DNA of 61,007 bases from Candidatus Saccharimonadota bacterium (GTDB lineage: Bacteria > Patescibacteriota > Saccharimonadia > Saccharimonadales > Saccharimonadaceae). The stretch lies in contig JAFWIK010000011.1 in the NCBI GenBank assembly GCA_017514905.1, forward strand, positions 1-61,007, written 5' to 3'. The translations under genes and the position numbers were made by a program. Positions 45,216 to 55,501 of the stretch are shown here, piece by piece (within the stretch, counting starts at the first letter, position 1; each line of letters opens with the position of its first letter). The notes beneath the pieces are model-generated. The model made no database searches. It saw nothing but the letters and a program-made list of their open reading frames with translations, and was not told the DNA's origin.

Positions 45216-46085
45216 CTATTTAGGTAATAACAAAAACGCCACTGTACCAGCCGCCGCGCCCAAGATAATTGTAATAATAATCGTCACCACAATACTCACA
45301 TGAGCATCTTTCTCAGGTTTAGCAATAATCGTCACTGGACCTTTCGGCTCCACTGTCTTAATATTCTTCTTTACGGTCTGTTTTTGATAAACATTCTTCG
45401 AAAGTGGCCTTTTAACTATCTTTTCCGAATTAATGAATGGCGTCACCGGCGGCTTAAAAGCACTGCTCGCTCCCATCTTCATAGATTTTTCCACAGGTTT
45501 TTCCACAGGGTTGACTCTGTCTGTAGCGTTAACTCCACCCATTGACCTCAATGCACTTCCGGCTTTGATTCTCTTCGCTTTTGCCTTTAATAGCGCTTCC
45601 TCGCTCCGGTTACGGCTATCAAGCGACCTTTTCGGTACATTCGTCTCTACAAATCGCTTATTTAAATTTTCAATCTCATCTAAAGCCGAAACTTCTTTTA
45701 ACTTAGCACTCGACATCGCTGCCCTTGGCATCGATTCATTTATTTCAGTTCTACTAGTCGTCAAAGTCCGCATCGTCGCCACCCTCGTCGCACTCGCTCG
45801 TGGAACCTCTGCTCGCACCGTCCTCGCCTGAGTATTAGCTCGTCTAACTGGTGCAGCTTGCTTGACATTCTGATTCACAGGCTGTCTAACGCTCCGACTT
45901 GCAGCCCGTCGTACAGATTGACCCACAGGCCGTCTCACGGGTTGATTCGAAACCTGATTTACAGATTGGCTCGAATCCTCTTTCGCAAGCTGTTTTGTAG
46001 GCCTTGCTGTAACCTGTTTAGCAGGTTGCACAGTTTGAGCACCCTTTTTCTTCGTCGGCACAAAATCTATATATCTCTTATTCAT
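45216..46085 (-). CDS. Tail-anchored basic low-complexity membrane protein
   Basis: This 289-residue protein is very rich in Arg, Gln, Val, Ser and Ala over residues 15-120, with degenerate repeats around NQPVRRPVGQSVRRA. It ends in a single hydrophobic helix (about residues 264-285) and LLLPK. There is no N-terminal signal, so the basic part is probably cytoplasmic and could touch nucleic acids or membrane lipids. The start overlaps the tpiA stop (ATGA), giving coupled translation. No family is recognised. Confidence 0.6.
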   Translation of the reverse strand: MNKRYIDFVPTKKKGAQTVQPAKQVTARPTKQLAKEDSSQSVNQVSNQPVRRPVGQSVRRAASRSVRQPVNQNVKQAAPVRRANTQARTVRAEVPRASATRVATMRTLTTSRTEINESMPRAAMSSAKLKEVSALDEIENLNKRFVETNVPKRSLDSRNRSEEALLKAKAKRIKAGSALRSMGGVNATDRVNPVEKPVEKSMKMGASSAFKPPVTPFINSEKIVKRPLSKNVYQKQTVKKNIKTVEPKGPVTIIAKPEKDAHVSIVVTIIITIILGAAAGTVAFLLLPK

Positions 46086-46852
46086 ACCTTTACTCTTTTA
46101 GCAACCTCTATTATATCAGTAAATTCACTCAGAATCAAACTCGAACCCCCAATCAAAAGTCCATTGATACCTGGCACAGTTAAATATGCACCCGCATTTG
46201 ATGGATTCACGCTTCCACCAAATAATACCGATACTTTTTCAGTAGCCTTTTTACCATAAGTATCAACTAGTGTTTTTCTAATTAATTTCACTACTTCCGC
46301 TACTTCATCCGGCGTCGCTAGCTTTGACACTTTCGTCGAAGAAATTGCCCACACTGGCTCATAGGCAATTATCACTTTTTCAAGATCATCATCCGCAATC
46401 TCCGATAAACCGCCTAATAACTGGTCTCGAATCACGTCCGTAGTCTCACCAAAAGCCCTCTCTGACTCCGTTTCACCAATACATAAAATCGGTCGGATCC
46501 GATTCCGTACCGCCGCTGCTACCTCTTTTGCAATCATTTTATCATCTTGGCCAAAAATATATCTTTGTTCCGAATGTCCCACAATTGCATAATCTACTAT
46601 CCCACTCAGTTGCAAAAAAGATGTTTCACCAGTATACGCCCCATAATCTCGGTAAAATGCATTCTGAGCTGCCAACTTCATCTTGTGTCGATCTATCTGC
46701 AGCGACAGAGGTTGCAATGCAACCGTCGATGGTGCCACCACCACTTCCATGTCACGATGATTTGGTAAAGCCTTCATTAGCTTATGAAGATAAATCGAAG
46801 CCTCTCCCACGGTAAAGTTCAGCTTCCAGTTGCCCACAATATAAGTTTTCAT
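46082..46852 (-). CDS. tpiA: Triosephosphate isomerase
   Basis: This 256-residue glycolytic enzyme interconverts DHAP and glyceraldehyde-3-phosphate. Visible are GNWKLNFT (Asn and Lys), VGHSEQRYIFG (catalytic His), IIAYEPVWAISS (catalytic Glu), the loop-6 region, and LFGGSVNPSNAGAYL with the phosphate-binding GLLIGGSSL. TATAAT ends exactly 6 bp before the ATG. It heads an operon with two proteins of unknown function. A class I aldolase fusion gene lies nearby on the opposite strand. Confidence 0.95.
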   Translation of the reverse strand: MKTYIVGNWKLNFTVGEASIYLHKLMKALPNHRDMEVVVAPSTVALQPLSLQIDRHKMKLAAQNAFYRDYGAYTGETSFLQLSGIVDYAIVGHSEQRYIFGQDDKMIAKEVAAAVRNRIRPILCIGETESERAFGETTDVIRDQLLGGLSEIADDDLEKVIIAYEPVWAISSTKVSKLATPDEVAEVVKLIRKTLVDTYGKKATEKVSVLFGGSVNPSNAGAYLTVPGINGLLIGGSSLILSEFTDIIEVAKRVKV

Positions 46853-46898: not shown

Positions 46899-47657
46899 AT
46901 GAAAAAAGTTTTAGCATTTGATATAGATCAAACCTTAAACGTCGCCAAGACTCCTATCACCGACGACATCGCAGAATTACTCGTTAAATGCCTCAACCAT
47001 TTCGAAATCTGCCCTATTTCAGGCCAAAAATTTGACCAATTCCTTATCCAAATCGTCAACCGTTTACCTCATCCTACACCTGAGCAATTGTCCCATCTAC
47101 ATTTATTTGTCGCCCAAGGCACTCAGTACTACCGATACGAAAACGGCGACTGGCATCAAGTCTATAATTATCCTCTAACCGACGAGCAAGTCGCCAAAAT
47201 TACTAATACTCTTGAGCAAGCTGCAAAAGAACTTGGTTACTGGGAAGAAGACAAATTACAACCAGGTGACGAAATTATCGAAAATCGCCTCTCTCAAGTT
47301 ACTTTTTCCGCCTTAGGTCAGCATGCCGGCACCGAAGCCAAATACGCCTGGGATCCTGACTGCAAAAAACGTGAAAAAATTGTCACCCGTTGCAAAGAAC
47401 TTGCCCCCGAATTTGATTATGAAATTGGTGGCACCACTTCCATCAATGCCATTACCCCCGGAATGAACAAAGTTTTTGGCATGACGCATCTTCTCAAAGA
47501 GCTCAAAGTTGAGAAAAAAGATATCCTCTATTTTGGCGACATGACTCAGCCTGGCGGCAATGATTACCCTGTCGTCGAAATGGGCATCGATACTATTACT
47601 GTCAGAAATCACGAAGACACTGCTTACGCCCTACGCGGTATCCTTGGCATCCTATAG
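46899..47657 (+). CDS. HAD-IIB phosphatase/phosphomannomutase-like protein
   Basis: This 252-residue protein has the HAD motif I FDIDQTL (about residues 7-13), motif II ICPISGQ, and a motif IV region LYFGDMTQPGGNDYPV. The last resembles the eukaryotic-type phosphomannomutase signature (GDKTxPGGNDxE). The cap contains IGGTTSINAITPGMNK, close to the PMM substrate loop. It may therefore interconvert hexose phosphates, or be a Cof-like phosphatase. TATAAT ends 6 bp before the ATG. It diverges from tpiA. Confidence 0.75.
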   Translation: MKKVLAFDIDQTLNVAKTPITDDIAELLVKCLNHFEICPISGQKFDQFLIQIVNRLPHPTPEQLSHLHLFVAQGTQYYRYENGDWHQVYNYPLTDEQVAKITNTLEQAAKELGYWEEDKLQPGDEIIENRLSQVTFSALGQHAGTEAKYAWDPDCKKREKIVTRCKELAPEFDYEIGGTTSINAITPGMNKVFGMTHLLKELKVEKKDILYFGDMTQPGGNDYPVVEMGIDTITVRNHEDTAYALRGILGIL

Positions 47658-48393: not shown

Positions 48394-50220
48394 ATGCATA
48401 TCTTAGTCGTGGGCAATGTCTTGAAAGACGTTTATCTCAATCTTGATTCCAGATCTGACCACTTTGAAACTGATCAAAACTCTATCGAGTGGCTCGATCT
48501 TAGTTTTAATGCTAGCGAACATCACTTTTTTAACCGCAACTCGAGTTTTGGCGGTGCTGCCGTCACGCTCGAAGTTCTCTCAAAACTCGGTCTATCCGCT
48601 ACTATTAGTGGCTCAAGCCTGTCCATCACCAAAGATGGCCCCTCTAATCAACAACCTCCCGAAACATACCGCTACATCCTGATTTCAAACGGTAAACCCT
48701 GTTATTTTGTTCCCACCGCTTATCAATCCACTCATTTCGAAACCCCTACCGATTTCTACGACTATATCTTTATTGACCGTTCCGCAAACCTCAATGATAC
48801 CTCAATTAATCATATTCATTCATACCTCAATCTATCCAGCAACACCAAACTTGTTGTTTATCTTCAAAACTCTAAAAACACCGCCATTTTATCTTTACTA
48901 TCCAGAGCCAGCCTCGTCTTTTGTGAAAACAACGTCACTGCACCAGAATTGTCATCAATTTCTACCGAAAGCCTCGTCCATCTTTCCGAAACCAACTTTT
49001 CCTATTTAGATCTTTCCGAAAAAATTTCGCCTCAGCGAATCGACGTTTTAACTCATCTTTCGTTCTATTCCATCGCTGCCGCCACCATTTTTGGCTGTTT
49101 CATTCTGGGTAAATCCGTCGAAGAAAGTCTCAAACTTGCCAAAATGAATGTCGAAAACTCCACCTTAAACGCCACACTTCCCTTATCACAATTAGAATCT
49201 CTCGCCGCTGAAACTCCCAACTCTGCCATTAATAACCTTGAACTTATTGCTTCAAATCTAGTTTTAAAACCCAAAGGCATCCTTGCCGCTGATGAGTCTG
49301 GCGGTTCCATTCATAAAAAATTCGAAAAACTAAATATCCCCGATACCTACGAAAATCGTCGTGATTATCGTAATCTCCTCTTCACTACCCCAAATTTGGA
49401 AAACTACGTCAATGGCGTTATTCTCTTCGATGAAACCGCCCATCAGCTTGCCGATAATGGGGAAACTTTTACAGAATTTCTCACTTCTAAGCTCATTATC
49501 CCCGGCATCAAAGTCGATCAAGGCCTCGAAAATTTTCCAGACTCCACCGAAACCTTCACTAAAGGTCTAGATGGTCTCTCTAATCGTCTTAAAAGCTATT
49601 TCGAAATGGGTTTACGCTTCGCAAAATGGCGCGCCGCCTTTAACGTTACATATGATGAAAGCCAAAAAATAGTCACACCCTCCGACTACGCCATCACCGA
49701 AAACTGTCGCCTCCTTGCCGAATACGCTTCGATATGTCAAAACAATGGCCTCGTTCCTATTGTTGAACCAGAATTAGTTTACGATGGATATTATTCTATT
49801 GAAGATTCCGCCACCCTAACTGGTAAAATTCTCGACCAGCTCTTTCAAAAACTCAAAGACAAGCAAGTAAATCTTAGAGCTTGTCTCCTCAAAGTCAATA
49901 TGGTTATCGCTGGCAAACAATTCAGCATAGCCTCAACTTCAGATGAAATTGGTGCTAAAACTGCTGACGTCTTGAAAAACCACGTTCCTTCCGATCTCGC
50001 CGGTATCGTTTTTCTTTCCGGTGGGCAAACTCCAGAACAAGCTACCGATAACCTTGCCGCTATTATCAAACATGGTCCTTTTCCCTGGCCCATCACTTTT
50101 TCCTTTGCTCGTGCCTTGCAAGATCCCGCTCTCTATGCTTGGAAAGGCGATAATAGCAACACCAAATCTGCCCAAGATGCCTTCGCGGCCCGTCTCCAAG
50201 CTAATTGCAACGTTTTATAA
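48394..50220 (+). CDS. Fusion of a degenerate PfkB-type sugar kinase and class I fructose-bisphosphate aldolase
   Basis: This 608-residue protein starts MHILVVGNVLKDVYLN at 48394, six bases after TATAAT; a longer in-frame start at 48358 is rejected. Residues 1 to about 265 resemble a PfkB/ribokinase-type carbohydrate kinase (SSFGGAAVTLEVLSKLG as motif 1). Where the catalytic DTxGAGD loop is expected, the protein reads DVLTHLSFYSIAAATIFG, so the catalytic Asp is missing. From about residue 275 a class I aldolase follows: PKGILAADESGGSIHKKF, GLVPIVEPELVYDG and RACLLKVNMVIAG (Schiff-base Lys). The aldolase half looks active; the kinase half is probably a pseudokinase. Confidence 0.82.
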   Translation: MHILVVGNVLKDVYLNLDSRSDHFETDQNSIEWLDLSFNASEHHFFNRNSSFGGAAVTLEVLSKLGLSATISGSSLSITKDGPSNQQPPETYRYILISNGKPCYFVPTAYQSTHFETPTDFYDYIFIDRSANLNDTSINHIHSYLNLSSNTKLVVYLQNSKNTAILSLLSRASLVFCENNVTAPELSSISTESLVHLSETNFSYLDLSEKISPQRIDVLTHLSFYSIAAATIFGCFILGKSVEESLKLAKMNVENSTLNATLPLSQLESLAAETPNSAINNLELIASNLVLKPKGILAADESGGSIHKKFEKLNIPDTYENRRDYRNLLFTTPNLENYVNGVILFDETAHQLADNGETFTEFLTSKLIIPGIKVDQGLENFPDSTETFTKGLDGLSNRLKSYFEMGLRFAKWRAAFNVTYDESQKIVTPSDYAITENCRLLAEYASICQNNGLVPIVEPELVYDGYYSIEDSATLTGKILDQLFQKLKDKQVNLRACLLKVNMVIAGKQFSIASTSDEIGAKTADVLKNHVPSDLAGIVFLSGGQTPEQATDNLAAIIKHGPFPWPITFSFARALQDPALYAWKGDNSNTKSAQDAFAARLQANCNVL

Positions 50221-50226
50221 GCTAAA

Positions 50227-50931
50227 CTATTCTTCTTTTGATTCTTCTTCAGTCGTTTTTTCTGCTGCACTCTCAGCTGCTTCTTCAGCACCTTCAGTTT
50301 CGCCTTCTGCTTCAGCCTCTGCCTGCTTCTCCGCCTCTTCTTCTGCTGCACGTTTTTCAGCTTCAGCTGCTGGGTCAAACAACGAGACCACTACTTGTTC
50401 AGGATCTAACTCCTTATCTGCAAACTCTACGCCTTCCGGCAATTTAATATCACCAATTGTCAGCTTATCCTCAACTGTTTCCAGTTTTGTACCATCAATC
50501 GTCAACTCTTGTGGCAAATCTGCTGGCTTTGCTTTTACAGCAACTTCCATGATCGTCTGCGTCATTGCCAAATGTAAAGTCTTCGAAGCCTCTGATTCTT
50601 CAAAACCTTCTACCACTATTGGCGTCGTTGCTTCAACCACTTCCTTCGCCGAAATTGCCTGGAATTCAATATTAATCATTTTTCTCGAAACTGGGTCAAT
50701 TCCTACGTGTTTAGCAATTGCTAGCTTCTTCTTTCCGTCAAAATTTAAATCAATTGGAGAGTGATATCCAGCTTTCTCCAAAACTTTTTCTGTAGCCACG
50801 TATTCCGAAGCTAACAAAATCGGCTCCTTACCACCATAAACTACCGATGGAATCATGCCAGCAGCTCTCAAACTCTTCAATTTTTTACCAGTAACTTCAC
50901 GCTTTTTCAGCGTCAACTTGTATTCAGCCAT
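50227..50931 (-). CDS. rplY: 50S ribosomal protein L25 (Ctc form)
   Basis: This 234-residue bL25 protein begins EYKLTLKKREVTGKKLKSLRAAGMIPSVVYG (5S-binding domain) and has the CTC-type C-terminal beta domain (VKAKPADLPQELTIDGTKLE, DIKLPEGVEFADKEL). It ends with an acidic Glu/Ala tail of about 45 residues. L25 binds 5S rRNA. It follows grpE and hrcA in the same direction, with 28 bp between it and grpE, and so may be co-expressed with the heat-shock genes, which is unusual. Confidence 0.94.
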   Translation of the reverse strand: MAEYKLTLKKREVTGKKLKSLRAAGMIPSVVYGGKEPILLASEYVATEKVLEKAGYHSPIDLNFDGKKKLAIAKHVGIDPVSRKMINIEFQAISAKEVVEATTPIVVEGFEESEASKTLHLAMTQTIMEVAVKAKPADLPQELTIDGTKLETVEDKLTIGDIKLPEGVEFADKELDPEQVVVSLFDPAAEAEKRAAEEEAEKQAEAEAEGETEGAEEAAESAAEKTTEEESKEE

Positions 50932-52619: not shown

Positions 52620-53243
52620 ATGGAAGATAAGATCTCTACAATCAAAAATTGGCTCGGCACCGGCAGTATCAATCTATTTGGTCTACCTATGTCCGGCAAA
52701 GACACCCAAGGCATTAAGCTCGCAAAAGCTTTAAATGCGAAATTTCTATCCTCTGGCATGATTATTCGTGCCATGGAAGAATCCAATCAAAAAAACTATA
52801 CAGGCAAAGGAAATCTTCTTCCGACTAGTCTTTTTTATGAATGGGTTTTACCATATTTTGAACGTAAAGATCTCTTTAATTATCCACTAGTTCTTTCTTC
52901 AATCGGTCGTTGGCATGGTGAAGAGCTTCAAGTTATGTCTGTCGCCGCTGGCGCCAATCACGAAATCAAAGCTGTCATTGTTCTTAATATTTCCGAAGCC
53001 GACGTCGAGAAACGCTTCAAAGAAGCTAAATCCTTAAACGATCGTGGCTCTCGCGCCGACGACAAATCACTCGAAATCTTCAAAACCCGGCTCCAGGAAT
53101 TCCGCACCAAGACTATACCAGTACTCAAATACTACCATGATCTCAATCTTCTCATCACCGTTAACGGCAATCAAACTCGTGAAGCCGTCTTTAATGAAAT
53201 AATCGACAAACTCTACGCCAAAGCTTTGCAATCTCGTGTCTAA
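52620..53243 (+). CDS. Adenylate-kinase-like nucleoside monophosphate kinase
   Basis: This 207-residue protein has an altered P-loop FGLPMSGKDTQGIKLAKAL (adenylate kinase normally GxPGSGKGTQ), an NMP-binding-like SSGMIIRAM, and a LID/Arg segment RGSRADDKSLEIFKTRL corresponding to the GRxDD signature. The fold is therefore that of adenylate kinase, although the changes may alter specificity. TATAAT ends 6 bp before the ATG. The last 53 bp overlap, on the opposite strand, the end of the lamin-tail gene at 53191. Confidence 0.8.
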   Translation: MEDKISTIKNWLGTGSINLFGLPMSGKDTQGIKLAKALNAKFLSSGMIIRAMEESNQKNYTGKGNLLPTSLFYEWVLPYFERKDLFNYPLVLSSIGRWHGEELQVMSVAAGANHEIKAVIVLNISEADVEKRFKEAKSLNDRGSRADDKSLEIFKTRLQEFRTKTIPVLKYYHDLNLLITVNGNQTREAVFNEIIDKLYAKALQSRV

Positions 53244-54735
53244 ATTCGTACACTAAATAGATTAATCCCAAAACCGCCACGCCTATTACGGCATACAGGC
53301 CCGTAAAAGATGAGCTTTCTTCATAAGTTTCTGGCACCAAACTATAATCCGCGCCACTATTCTCTTTCATTTTCCGACAACGATTCGTTTCTGGATTCAA
53401 ATAGTATCCTTCTTTACAAGTTTTTTTAGTCTTAGTTCCAATTTTCTTGCATCTGCCAGTTAAAGGATTCAAATACTGCCCTTTTTTGCAAGTCTTTTTG
53501 TTCTTTGTTTCAAGCTTCCTACATCTGCCAGTTGTAGAGTTTAGATAATAGCCTTTTTTACATGTTTTCTGAGTTTTAGCTTCAATTTTCTTGCATCTAT
53601 CAGTTAAAGGATTCAAATACTGTCCCTCTTCACAGACTTTTTCTTTCACCTCCGAAACTTTCACGCAATTTCCTGTAATCTTATTTATTACTTTACCCTT
53701 CTCGCAAGTTTTAAATTCTTGATAGTTATTCGACTGCCCCGGTGTCGGTGTATAAGTCATTCGCCAAATCGGCTCTCCCTTTTTATCGTATTGAATTAAA
53801 GCATACGCCGTGCCCTTCCTTTGCCCATTTGAATAGCCCACCGTGTCCACCACCTTTTCGTCAACATCAATCAGTTCCAAAATATTCTGATTAGTTGGAT
53901 TTTTTGTGAGGCTAAATTCACGCGGATAATACACATAGTATTCTCTCGGTTTAATTGTCCCCTTCAAAACATACTGCTTATTTTTATATCGAATCGAACA
54001 ACCATTCATTATAATCGCTTCTGCACTCGGATTATAAAACTCAATAAACTGTTCTGACCGCAACGACTCATAGTAACTTAAAATTTCTGAAAATCTTAGC
54101 TTTTCGCACTGACTTCCTTTTTTCTGCTCTTCTCCTTCCTCTTCCTCTTCTTTTTCTTCTAACGGTCCATTTAGAACATAGCTCTTATCGTCGTAATCTG
54201 GTTCATAACTCTCCAAATGCTCAAATGAACCAGTCTCCAAATCCCGCACCAAAGTAGTTGGCTTCGTCGACTTAAACTCTTTATAACAATCATCTTTTCC
54301 AGTCCAGCAAACCTCATCCAAAACTTTTTCGCCCAATTTCAATTTTAATCCACCCGTCATCGCTAACGTCTTGGTATAATTCACGGCGGCTAGCTCGTAC
54401 TCTGGCGAGCTAGCCAAACGAAGGAGGATGGTCTCGCCGGTCATCAAACTGTTCTCGGGAAATTCTAACAACGTAGAATAGTTCCCGCTTGAGTTAGTAT
54501 AGCCTACAGTTAGGCCAGCGAGCAAAATCGGTGTGTCGGAGTTTTTCCGGGCAATTTCAATCATCTCCCCGACATTTGACGTACCATTGACTACATATCC
54601 CGGATTAACCGCCTTGATATATATTTCTGGTATTTCTTTCGTAATAATACCTTCTGCCTTAGTAGCAATTATCCCACCCCATCCTGCGATTATTGACCCT
54701 ACTATTATGATTAAAATAATTAAAAATTTTCTCAT
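53191..54735 (-). CDS. Surface protein with lamin-tail domain and cysteine repeats
   Basis: This 514-residue protein starts MRKFLIILII at 54735 with a signal segment. A lamin-tail (LTD) domain spans about residues 210-350 (LRFSEILSYYES, FIEFYNPSAEAI, TYTPTPGQSNN). Then come five repeats of about 24 residues with the pattern C-x-x-G-x-Y-L-N-x-x-T-x-R-C-x-K, each with two cysteines. A membrane helix (about 478-498) and a short basic tail end the protein. The upstream in-frame extension to 54810 overlaps the divergent promoter and is rejected. The final codons overlap the end of the adenylate-kinase-like gene. Confidence 0.75.
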   Translation of the reverse strand: MRKFLIILIIIVGSIIAGWGGIIATKAEGIITKEIPEIYIKAVNPGYVVNGTSNVGEMIEIARKNSDTPILLAGLTVGYTNSSGNYSTLLEFPENSLMTGETILLRLASSPEYELAAVNYTKTLAMTGGLKLKLGEKVLDEVCWTGKDDCYKEFKSTKPTTLVRDLETGSFEHLESYEPDYDDKSYVLNGPLEEKEEEEEGEEQKKGSQCEKLRFSEILSYYESLRSEQFIEFYNPSAEAIIMNGCSIRYKNKQYVLKGTIKPREYYVYYPREFSLTKNPTNQNILELIDVDEKVVDTVGYSNGQRKGTAYALIQYDKKGEPIWRMTYTPTPGQSNNYQEFKTCEKGKVINKITGNCVKVSEVKEKVCEEGQYLNPLTDRCKKIEAKTQKTCKKGYYLNSTTGRCRKLETKNKKTCKKGQYLNPLTGRCKKIGTKTKKTCKEGYYLNPETNRCRKMKENSGADYSLVPETYEESSSFTGLYAVIGVAVLGLIYLVYEFRHEIAKLWRRVCRLFH

Positions 54736-54796
54736 GACACGACACGCTAGCACAGTCCCACTAGAAATGCAACCCCCTTCATGATATAATAAAACC

Positions 54797-55501
54797 ATGA
54801 GCATTTTCACCTCTTTTAGTATTATTATCGCTGCTATGCTTATTCTAGGTTTTTCACAATTATCTTCCGGTGTTTTGGCACTTCAAACCCATTACGCTCT
54901 TGGTAAATTCAGTAGGTCCAAAGCCTCAAGCCTAGCACTTTTTTTCATCCTTGGCGTCGTCATTCTCTCTATTTGCTTCTTCGTATCTATCTATTTCCTA
55001 ATTTCAATTCTCTCTCTGAGCAACCAAATAGTGTTTAACCAAATTACCATCTGGATCTTTGGCAGTATTTTTATTACTCTAGCATTATTCTGTCTCTTAT
55101 TTTATTATCGCCGTGACAAAAATAGCCAGCTCTTTATTCCTAGATCTCTAGCTAAAGCTCTCGGCCACGACGCCGCTTCCATCCGAACTAGGCCAAATGC
55201 CACCAGGCTCGGTCTCTTTTCTTATTGTTGTGAGTTTTTCCTTACTCTCCCCCTCTACATCATTGTCTCCATCGCTCTATTCAAAATTGAAAACTTCGGT
55301 CTTCTTTCCATCTTTCTAGCAATTCTTTTCATACTTGCGCCCACCATACCACTTTTCCTTATTCTTTTAGAATACCATTCCGGTTTTAATCTCGCCGATA
55401 TTTTAAAGAATCGCATCAAAAACAAACCTTTCATTCGCATTCTTTTAAGCTTTTGCTTTTTTATCATCGCCGCATTAATTATTTATTCGGGGACATTCTA
55501 A
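54797..55501 (+). CDS. Polytopic membrane protein of unknown function
   Basis: This 234-residue protein has about six predicted membrane helices and little hydrophilic sequence except a basic loop around residues 104-138 (YYRRDKNSQLFIPRSLAKAL). No transport motif is recognised. TATAAT ends exactly 6 bp before the ATG. The stop overlaps the next start (TAATG), so it is coupled to the 79-residue protein and the flavoprotein in a three-gene operon. Confidence 0.6.
   Translation: MSIFTSFSIIIAAMLILGFSQLSSGVLALQTHYALGKFSRSKASSLALFFILGVVILSICFFVSIYFLISILSLSNQIVFNQITIWIFGSIFITLALFCLLFYYRRDKNSQLFIPRSLAKALGHDAASIRTRPNATRLGLFSYCCEFFLTLPLYIIVSIALFKIENFGLLSIFLAILFILAPTIPLFLILLEYHSGFNLADILKNRIKNKPFIRILLSFCFFIIAALIIYSGTF

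Follow-up and report, generated by a model that had tools for sequence, protein, structure and literature searches.

Why should a bacterium retain a sugar kinase that has lost its catalytic loop, and retain it in front of a glycolytic enzyme? The question is raised by a gene encoding a protein of 608 amino acids (48394..50220, plus strand) in the window, a stretch of 61,007 nucleotides whose genus is assigned to the Saccharibacteria by contig labels. Saccharibacteria are tiny parasitic bacteria. The first-pass annotation had described the gene as a PfkB-type domain fused to a class I fructose-bisphosphate (FBP) aldolase and had weighed two roles for the fused kinase, a substrate channel and a dead kinase serving as a sugar-phosphate sensor. 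The best explanation as a whole, to which we assign a probability of about 0.55, is that a dead, PfkB2-derived domain is selectively maintained on a working aldolase and has a non-catalytic role, most likely as a ligand-binding module.

The fusion of a degenerate PfkB-fold domain and an aldolase was established from the open reading frame, profile searches and orthologues. The window protein (P0001) was matched, mostly over its full length, in 34 of the 36 genomes of the genus (the window's own included), and since the same uninterrupted ORF recurs in many genomes, a gene-calling or assembly artefact was ruled out. Residues 282-605 (49237..50208, plus strand) matched the class I aldolase profile PF00274 with an E-value of 9.5e-107 and a score of 357.2 bits (cut-off, 22.2), and P0001 scored 386.6 bits against NF033379 (cut-off, 250). 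The aldolase fold was recovered by VIA, with a Z score of 49.5 over 329 aligned residues and an rmsd of 1.3 to rabbit aldolase (3bv4); a fold search with the full-length model returned only aldolases among the matches listed and nothing on the N-terminal domain. The Schiff-base lysine is retained, as annotated: K500 (49891..49893, plus strand) aligns with its counterpart in class I aldolases of solved structure and is invariant in all 35 orthologues. The same invariance was found for D300, K411, E458 and R573, whose catalytic roles we assume from rabbit aldolase numbering. Because searches with PF00274 and PF01116 return no other FBP aldolase in the window genome (87% complete), the fused enzyme very probably works as one, judging from the sequence.

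The two neighbours named in the annotation were confirmed. On the minus strand, tpiA (46082..46852) encodes triosephosphate isomerase (PF00121, E 2.5e-71), and the PMM-like gene (46899..47657, plus strand) encodes a HAD-family protein that matches the eukaryotic-PMM profile PF03332 (E 2e-10) as well as PF08282 (E 1.1e-6). A gene for ribosomal protein L25/TL5 (50227..50931, minus strand; PF01386 and PF14693) converges on the fusion gene. Next to tpiA, positions 45216-46085 (minus strand) encode a basic protein of low sequence complexity that has a hydrophobic segment in its C-terminal part and is kept, with the motif KRPLSKNVY, in other genomes of the genus (L149:135-758, L150:238-861 and L152:106-870). 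Elsewhere in the window, positions 53191-54810 (minus strand) encode a predicted surface protein carrying, near its C-terminus, several near-identical cysteine-containing units of the TCKKGYYLN...GRCRK kind.

The N-terminal part, residues 1-275 (48394..49218, plus strand), had no match in Pfam or NCBIfam. PF00294 did not match P0001, and it matched just one of 35 fusion members, with an E-value of 0.19 that leaves the gathering score unreached. When folded separately, the domain was matched by Foldseek to PfkB/ribokinase-superfamily kinases with a probability of 1.00 (best E, 8.5e-6, to HldA), E. coli Pfk-2 being among the matches, and VIA aligned 243 residues with 3k9e (Z, 19.7; rmsd, 3.3). 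The model was built from six sequences (the window's and L001-L005) and is of middling quality (mean pLDDT, 73.7; pTM, 0.79), with residues 25-50 and 91-109 below 50, so that it is weak exactly at the lid. The model supports a predicted PfkB (ribokinase-superfamily) fold; chance similarity, or absence of a PfkB fold, was ruled out by hhalign, Foldseek and VIA.

Two PfkB paralogues recur in a sample of 294 genomes of the order. PfkB1 is a stand-alone gene of ~320 amino acids; PfkB2 is a second gene, which in many genera encodes ~500 amino acids with an N-terminal extension and lies directly behind PfkB1. By hhalign, the dead domain matched PfkB2 over 267 columns (probability, 99.5%; E 4.5e-22), whereas the match to PfkB1 covered only 145 columns (95.1%). 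A PfkB2 model scored the pseudokinase ORFs at 14-65 bits, four listed ORFs falling under the threshold, and a PfkB1 model gave no score for any of them. By these profile comparisons, the dead domain is descended from an active-looking PfkB2. The N-terminal extension of PfkB2 is ~170 amino acids long in many related genera, e.g. L098:820-2322 (minus strand), L097:1036-2529 (plus strand) and L113:725-2221 (plus strand). It had no Pfam match in L098, the one protein scanned, and is missing in the fused forms and in G188.

Catalytic motifs were compared in an alignment of 36 dead-type N-terminal domains, chosen for diversity from the listed ones, and 27 PfkB2 domains; 32 of the dead rows carry a full-length fused aldolase, and four come from genomes G005, G284, G306 and G305. 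The GAGD anion-hole loop with the catalytic Asp was found in all 27 PfkB2 domains versus none of the 36 dead rows, bearing out its annotated loss. In its place the window protein has T220-H-L-S-F-Y-S-I227 (49051..49074, plus strand), which hhalign and the alignment put at the kinase motif [DE]RTGAGDA. The column of the lost catalytic Asp corresponds to S226 by MAFFT and to Y225 by hhalign, and an Asp is absent from both candidate positions in 36/36 rows; the active-site comparison that the annotation had proposed as a check therefore returned a PfkB-like fold without this residue. In the N-x-x-E motif, the Asn is changed to Glu or Asp in 34/36 dead rows and the Glu is replaced too, and the Asp of the nucleotide-site TDG motif is present in none of the 36. 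Among 76 columns invariant in PfkB2 (at least 26/27), 45 are kept in at most 10% of the dead rows and 11 in at least 70%. Judged by these motifs, the dead domain is incapable of PfkB chemistry.

The sugar side of the domain has been kept and remodelled. The sugar-site motif G-D-x-x-x-D of PfkB2 is represented by G7-N8-x-x-x-D12 (48412..48429, plus strand), with G7 and D12 in 36/36 dead rows; D12, the sugar-site Asp after the first strand, is also present in 27/27 PfkB2 domains. Gained positions, conserved in at least 90% of the dead rows and not so in PfkB2, number 22, of which 16 never occur in the 27 PfkB2 rows; they include N8, K11, R48, G54, R93, D128, R129, S130, T220, L222 and E254. R93 (48670..48672, plus strand), which may sit near the phosphate-binding Arg of Pfk-2, is found in all 36 pseudokinase rows and in 0/27 PfkB2 domains, and D128-R129-S130 (48775..48783, plus strand) in 35, 33 and 34 of the 36, respectively, and again in 0/27. 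H221 is replaced by Arg in five of the 36 rows. The DRS and THL motifs are missing from the most divergent members, G226 and G116, which means that the new motif does not extend to every member. Conservation is highest at residues 1-60, which span the first strand and the lid with a mean entropy of 0.99-1.63 bits, and lowest at residues 161-220 on the former nucleotide side (2.45-2.83 bits), where the nucleotide-binding segment is shortened. From PfkB structures, we take the remodelled conserved positions to line the sugar pocket.

We examined the distribution of the dead domain in the order sample and found it in 50 of the 294 genomes (matches with E 1e-25 or better). In 45 of the 50 it is joined to a full-length aldolase (35 genomes of the window's genus g1, eight of g32 and one each of g28 and g42), and the class II aldolase PF01116 was found in none of the 50. 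Every full-length PF00274 match of the window's family in this sample is a fusion. The first-pass annotation had called for a survey of the fusion across CPR genomes, and the fusion was not seen to be widespread: PF00274 occurs in 58 of 379 genomes sampled across the phylum, and only ten of these matches, which all belong to the window's family, sit in an ORF of more than 500 amino acids. A contig scan yielded five fusions; the contig labels were Saccharibacteria for four and Nomurabacteria for one. The last, L005 (JAISOF010000017.1, labelled Candidatus Nomurabacteria), is a fusion without the THL motif, and its aldolase groups with that of G226 of the Saccharibacteria family (97/80), indicating a mislabelled bin or transfer.

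Four states of the gene pair were observed. Where the genes are separate, the PfkB genes are immediately preceded by a class II aldolase in most families, and PfkB2 is immediately preceded by a stand-alone class I aldolase in G145, G159, G185, G275 and G279. In three genomes of a sister genus (G128, G197 and G239), a PfkB2 with DRTGAGDAF is fused to the class I aldolase in proteins of 668-669 amino acids, counted from the first start codon; these genomes also carry a class II aldolase and PfkB1 elsewhere. The third state is the dead fusion of the window. In five further genomes the dead domain occurs without a full aldolase, the ORF ending at the domain in G005 and G284 and the aldolase being truncated in G232, G306 and G305; all five keep G7, D12, R93, D128-R-S and T220-x-L (G232 was read by eye). 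Neither domain was found in G017, G262 and G302 of the genus. Because the three sister-genus fusions have intact motifs, a form compatible with a channel and a dead-kinase form both exist, and the dead kinase is one stage of a fusion whose relatives retain GAGD.

A branch supported at 100/97 divided the aldolase tree into 31 fusion rows, among them those with an intact kinase, and 18 stand-alone rows. This was the second tree, to which G056 and nine sequences of other families in the phylum had been added and from which the very long G098 and five fusion rows had been removed; in the first, which was without G056, the fusions were supported at 97/78. The dead fusion of G116 branched outside the intact fusions (92/81) if the root lies among the stand-alone rows, although this long branch (1.04) is placed with little certainty. 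Such a position would mean two separate losses of catalysis. The tree fits one fusion event, perhaps with two such losses.

Selection on the dead domain was estimated by the Nei-Gojobori method in 23 close pairs, of which one was identical, 12 had saturated dS in the N-terminal domain and ten gave finite ratios, several with dS above 1; the ratios were dN/dS 0.023-0.12. For G232/G306, in which both aldolases are truncated, dN/dS was 0.074 in the dead domain and 0.121 in the aldolase remnant, which partly overlaps the opposite-strand L25 gene. Since this remnant is constrained, to speak of the aldolase as lost may be too strong there. In L033, L035 and L085 the aldolase part has a dN of 0.40-0.44, two to three times that of the N-terminal domain (0.13-0.19), and the aldolase catalytic residues checked in L033-L035 are kept. 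The sub-clade of L033, L034, L035 and L166 combines this fast fused aldolase, in which the ADESGGSI segment is altered, with a slow dead kinase domain. By these ratios, the dead domain is under purifying selection, which fits a pseudoenzyme derived from an active paralogue (GAGD in 27/27 PfkB2 domains).

The separate kinase PfkB1 was then compared across these genomes. In the window genome, PfkB1 (G000:C13, L112) has both GAGD and the sugar-site Asp and adjoins a ribulose-phosphate epimerase gene and an ORF read as GAPDH. PF00294 was found in 47 of the 50 dead-domain genomes and is missing in G005, G241 and G202, which are 97-98% complete; the sugar-site Asp is kept in all 30 PfkB1 loci of one set (four by eye). 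The picture differs in the five genomes whose dead domain lacks a complete aldolase. G005 has no PfkB1; in G232 (L222) and G306 (L223), LQD is changed to LQN and GAGD to GAGS; in G284 (L219), LQD is changed to TQY; and in G305 (L218), LQD is changed to LQS, with GSGD. As G232 and G306 are close relatives, these amount to about four events of loss or change. G017, G262 and G302, which have no PF00274 or PF01116 match, carry PfkB1 with intact motifs and so reject, as a rule, a strict tie between PfkB1 and the aldolase. Taken together, the PfkB1 states in the five aldolase-deficient genomes and in these three suggest that PfkB1 chemistry tends to decay in genomes whose dead domain is without its aldolase, and not wherever an aldolase is absent. 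In the fast-aldolase clade, PfkB1 has Glu for Asp and GVGD in G014 and GVGD in G313, and is intact in G024. By its motifs, PfkB1 of G232, G306, G284 and G305 is apparently a second PfkB protein turning into a pseudokinase.

These data make it highly probable that the N-terminal domain is a PfkB2-derived module, catalytically dead as a PfkB kinase, selectively maintained and attached to a working aldolase. The sequences show that, within a single Saccharibacteria family, an active-looking PfkB2 was joined to the N-terminal side of a class I FBP aldolase. In the window lineage, the fused kinase then lost its phosphoryl-transfer and nucleotide motifs, with the fold, the sugar-site Asp and the strongly conserved N-terminal/lid segment kept, and gained the conserved R48, R93, D128-R-S130, T220-H-L and E254. 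The aldolase part retains its catalytic residues, and the two aldolase profiles detect no other FBP aldolase in these genomes. Phosphorylation of fructose 6-phosphate, if any, would fall to the separate PfkB1. The dead domain would bind a ligand without catalysis, most likely a sugar phosphate in the remodelled former sugar pocket, and would signal to, or dock, a partner; it would not be merely a cis regulator of the aldolase, because it is kept in five genomes in which the aldolase is gone or truncated. Selection, the remodelled conserved residues and survival without the aldolase together favour such a non-catalytic binding role, with sugar-phosphate binding as the favoured first choice and docking to PfkB1 as the second. 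We hold the ligand-binding mechanism itself tentatively, at slightly short of even odds. In a bolder form, which we consider somewhat unlikely, the dead kinase would be a regulator in its own right, a sensor or adaptor born in an active fusion that outlives its enzyme, and with PfkB1 it may form a non-catalytic signalling pair where upper glycolysis has stopped.

PfkB kinases dimerise by lid-to-lid contact, and the dead domain might use such a contact to pair with active PfkB1 and bring this phosphofructokinase candidate to the aldolase in a two-gene metabolon. The first strand and lid are the best conserved part of the domain, PfkB1 accompanies the dead domain in nearly all genomes, and PfkB1 persists, despite its sugar-site or catalytic losses, in four of the five genomes that lack a complete aldolase. 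A distance correlation with L25 held constant (18 genomes, no significance test) leans weakly to docking, the N-domain/PfkB1 value (0.45) being near that between the N-terminal domain and its own aldolase (0.50) and above that between aldolase and PfkB1 (0.25). However, PfkB1 is present in most genomes anyway, the lid dimer is known from the PfkB family and not from these proteins, and the three nearly complete genomes with a dead domain and no PF00294 match weaken the case for an obligatory PfkB1 partner. We regard this docking reading as rather unlikely.

The uniform loss of kinase motifs, perhaps in two lineages separately if the position of G116 holds, would also be expected if the domain were a passive relic, merely a folding or oligomerisation aid whose removal would destabilise the aldolase. 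This seems quite improbable: five genomes that lack a complete aldolase retain the domain, dN/dS indicates purifying selection on it in the sole testable pair of these (G232/G306), it changes more slowly than the aldolase in L033, L035 and L085, and new invariant polar residues are unexpected in a passive scaffold. The same polar residues and strong purifying selection, together with D217 in 30 of the 36 rows, could instead point to an enzyme that still phosphorylates, or otherwise acts on, a sugar through a rearranged site (e.g. D217, H221 or D128) and another phosphoryl donor. No candidate base is invariant in the loop, however, and conservation within the domain is lowest in the former nucleotide-binding segment, which is also shortened; a surviving activity is very improbable. 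The preferred reading remains a non-catalytic module that would bind a ligand, most likely a sugar phosphate.

The phosphofructokinase step is a familiar gap in the glycolysis of CPR bacteria (PMC7304191, PMC8386444), and PF00365 scored above its cut-off in only two of the 294 order genomes. The fusion directs the search for the missing enzyme to the PfkB/aldolase pair, and apparently bifunctional and dead-kinase forms are both present in sister genera. Separate genes, intact fusion, dead fusion and dead domain alone would form an evolutionary series in which a metabolic enzyme becomes a non-enzymatic protein. In line with the annotation, which knew of no description of this fusion, a search of the literature outside subscription papers and preprints found no description of it or of PfkB pseudokinases.

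Kinase-aldolase fusions as such are already known elsewhere. An IolC-DUF2090 fusion of inositol catabolism occurs in nine bacteria, with DUF2090 proposed as the aldolase (PMC9007349). This fusion (NF047869; 5-dehydro-2-deoxygluconokinase and its aldolase) and the KHG/KDPG aldolase-kinase (NF041633) likewise join a PfkB-family kinase to an aldolase acting on the kinase product, and the window protein shares with the former type an N-terminal kinase-derived domain and a C-terminal aldolase. IolC-DUF2090 differs in that it serves another pathway, uses another aldolase family (DUF2090, LacD-like) and has a presumably active kinase. P0001, in which the intact GAGD motif is absent, matched neither NF047869 nor NF041633, and an intact Saccharibacteria fusion matched them weakly, at 22.8 and 20.0 bits versus cut-offs of 600 and 700, respectively. 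In TM7x, a cultured member of the Saccharibacteria with genetic tools, TM7x_02415 is a predicted PfkB-type phosphofructokinase in the operon of the aldolase (PMC12815258). TM7x_02415 and TM7x_02420 place the same two functions side by side, but as two separate genes, and in the order sample the PfkB genes mostly adjoin a class II aldolase. For a non-catalytic role, the plant proteins FLN1 and FLN2 belong to the PfkB family and reside in the plastid RNA polymerase complex, where their role need not be catalytic (PMC3409070); they resemble the dead domain as PfkB proteins kept in a larger complex and differ in being from plants and not fused to a metabolic enzyme. Gal3p-type sensors, summarised in the same paper, are sugar kinase relatives without catalysis that bind sugar and signal, as we propose for the dead domain, but they belong to the galactokinase family, bind ATP too and act in yeast transcription control.
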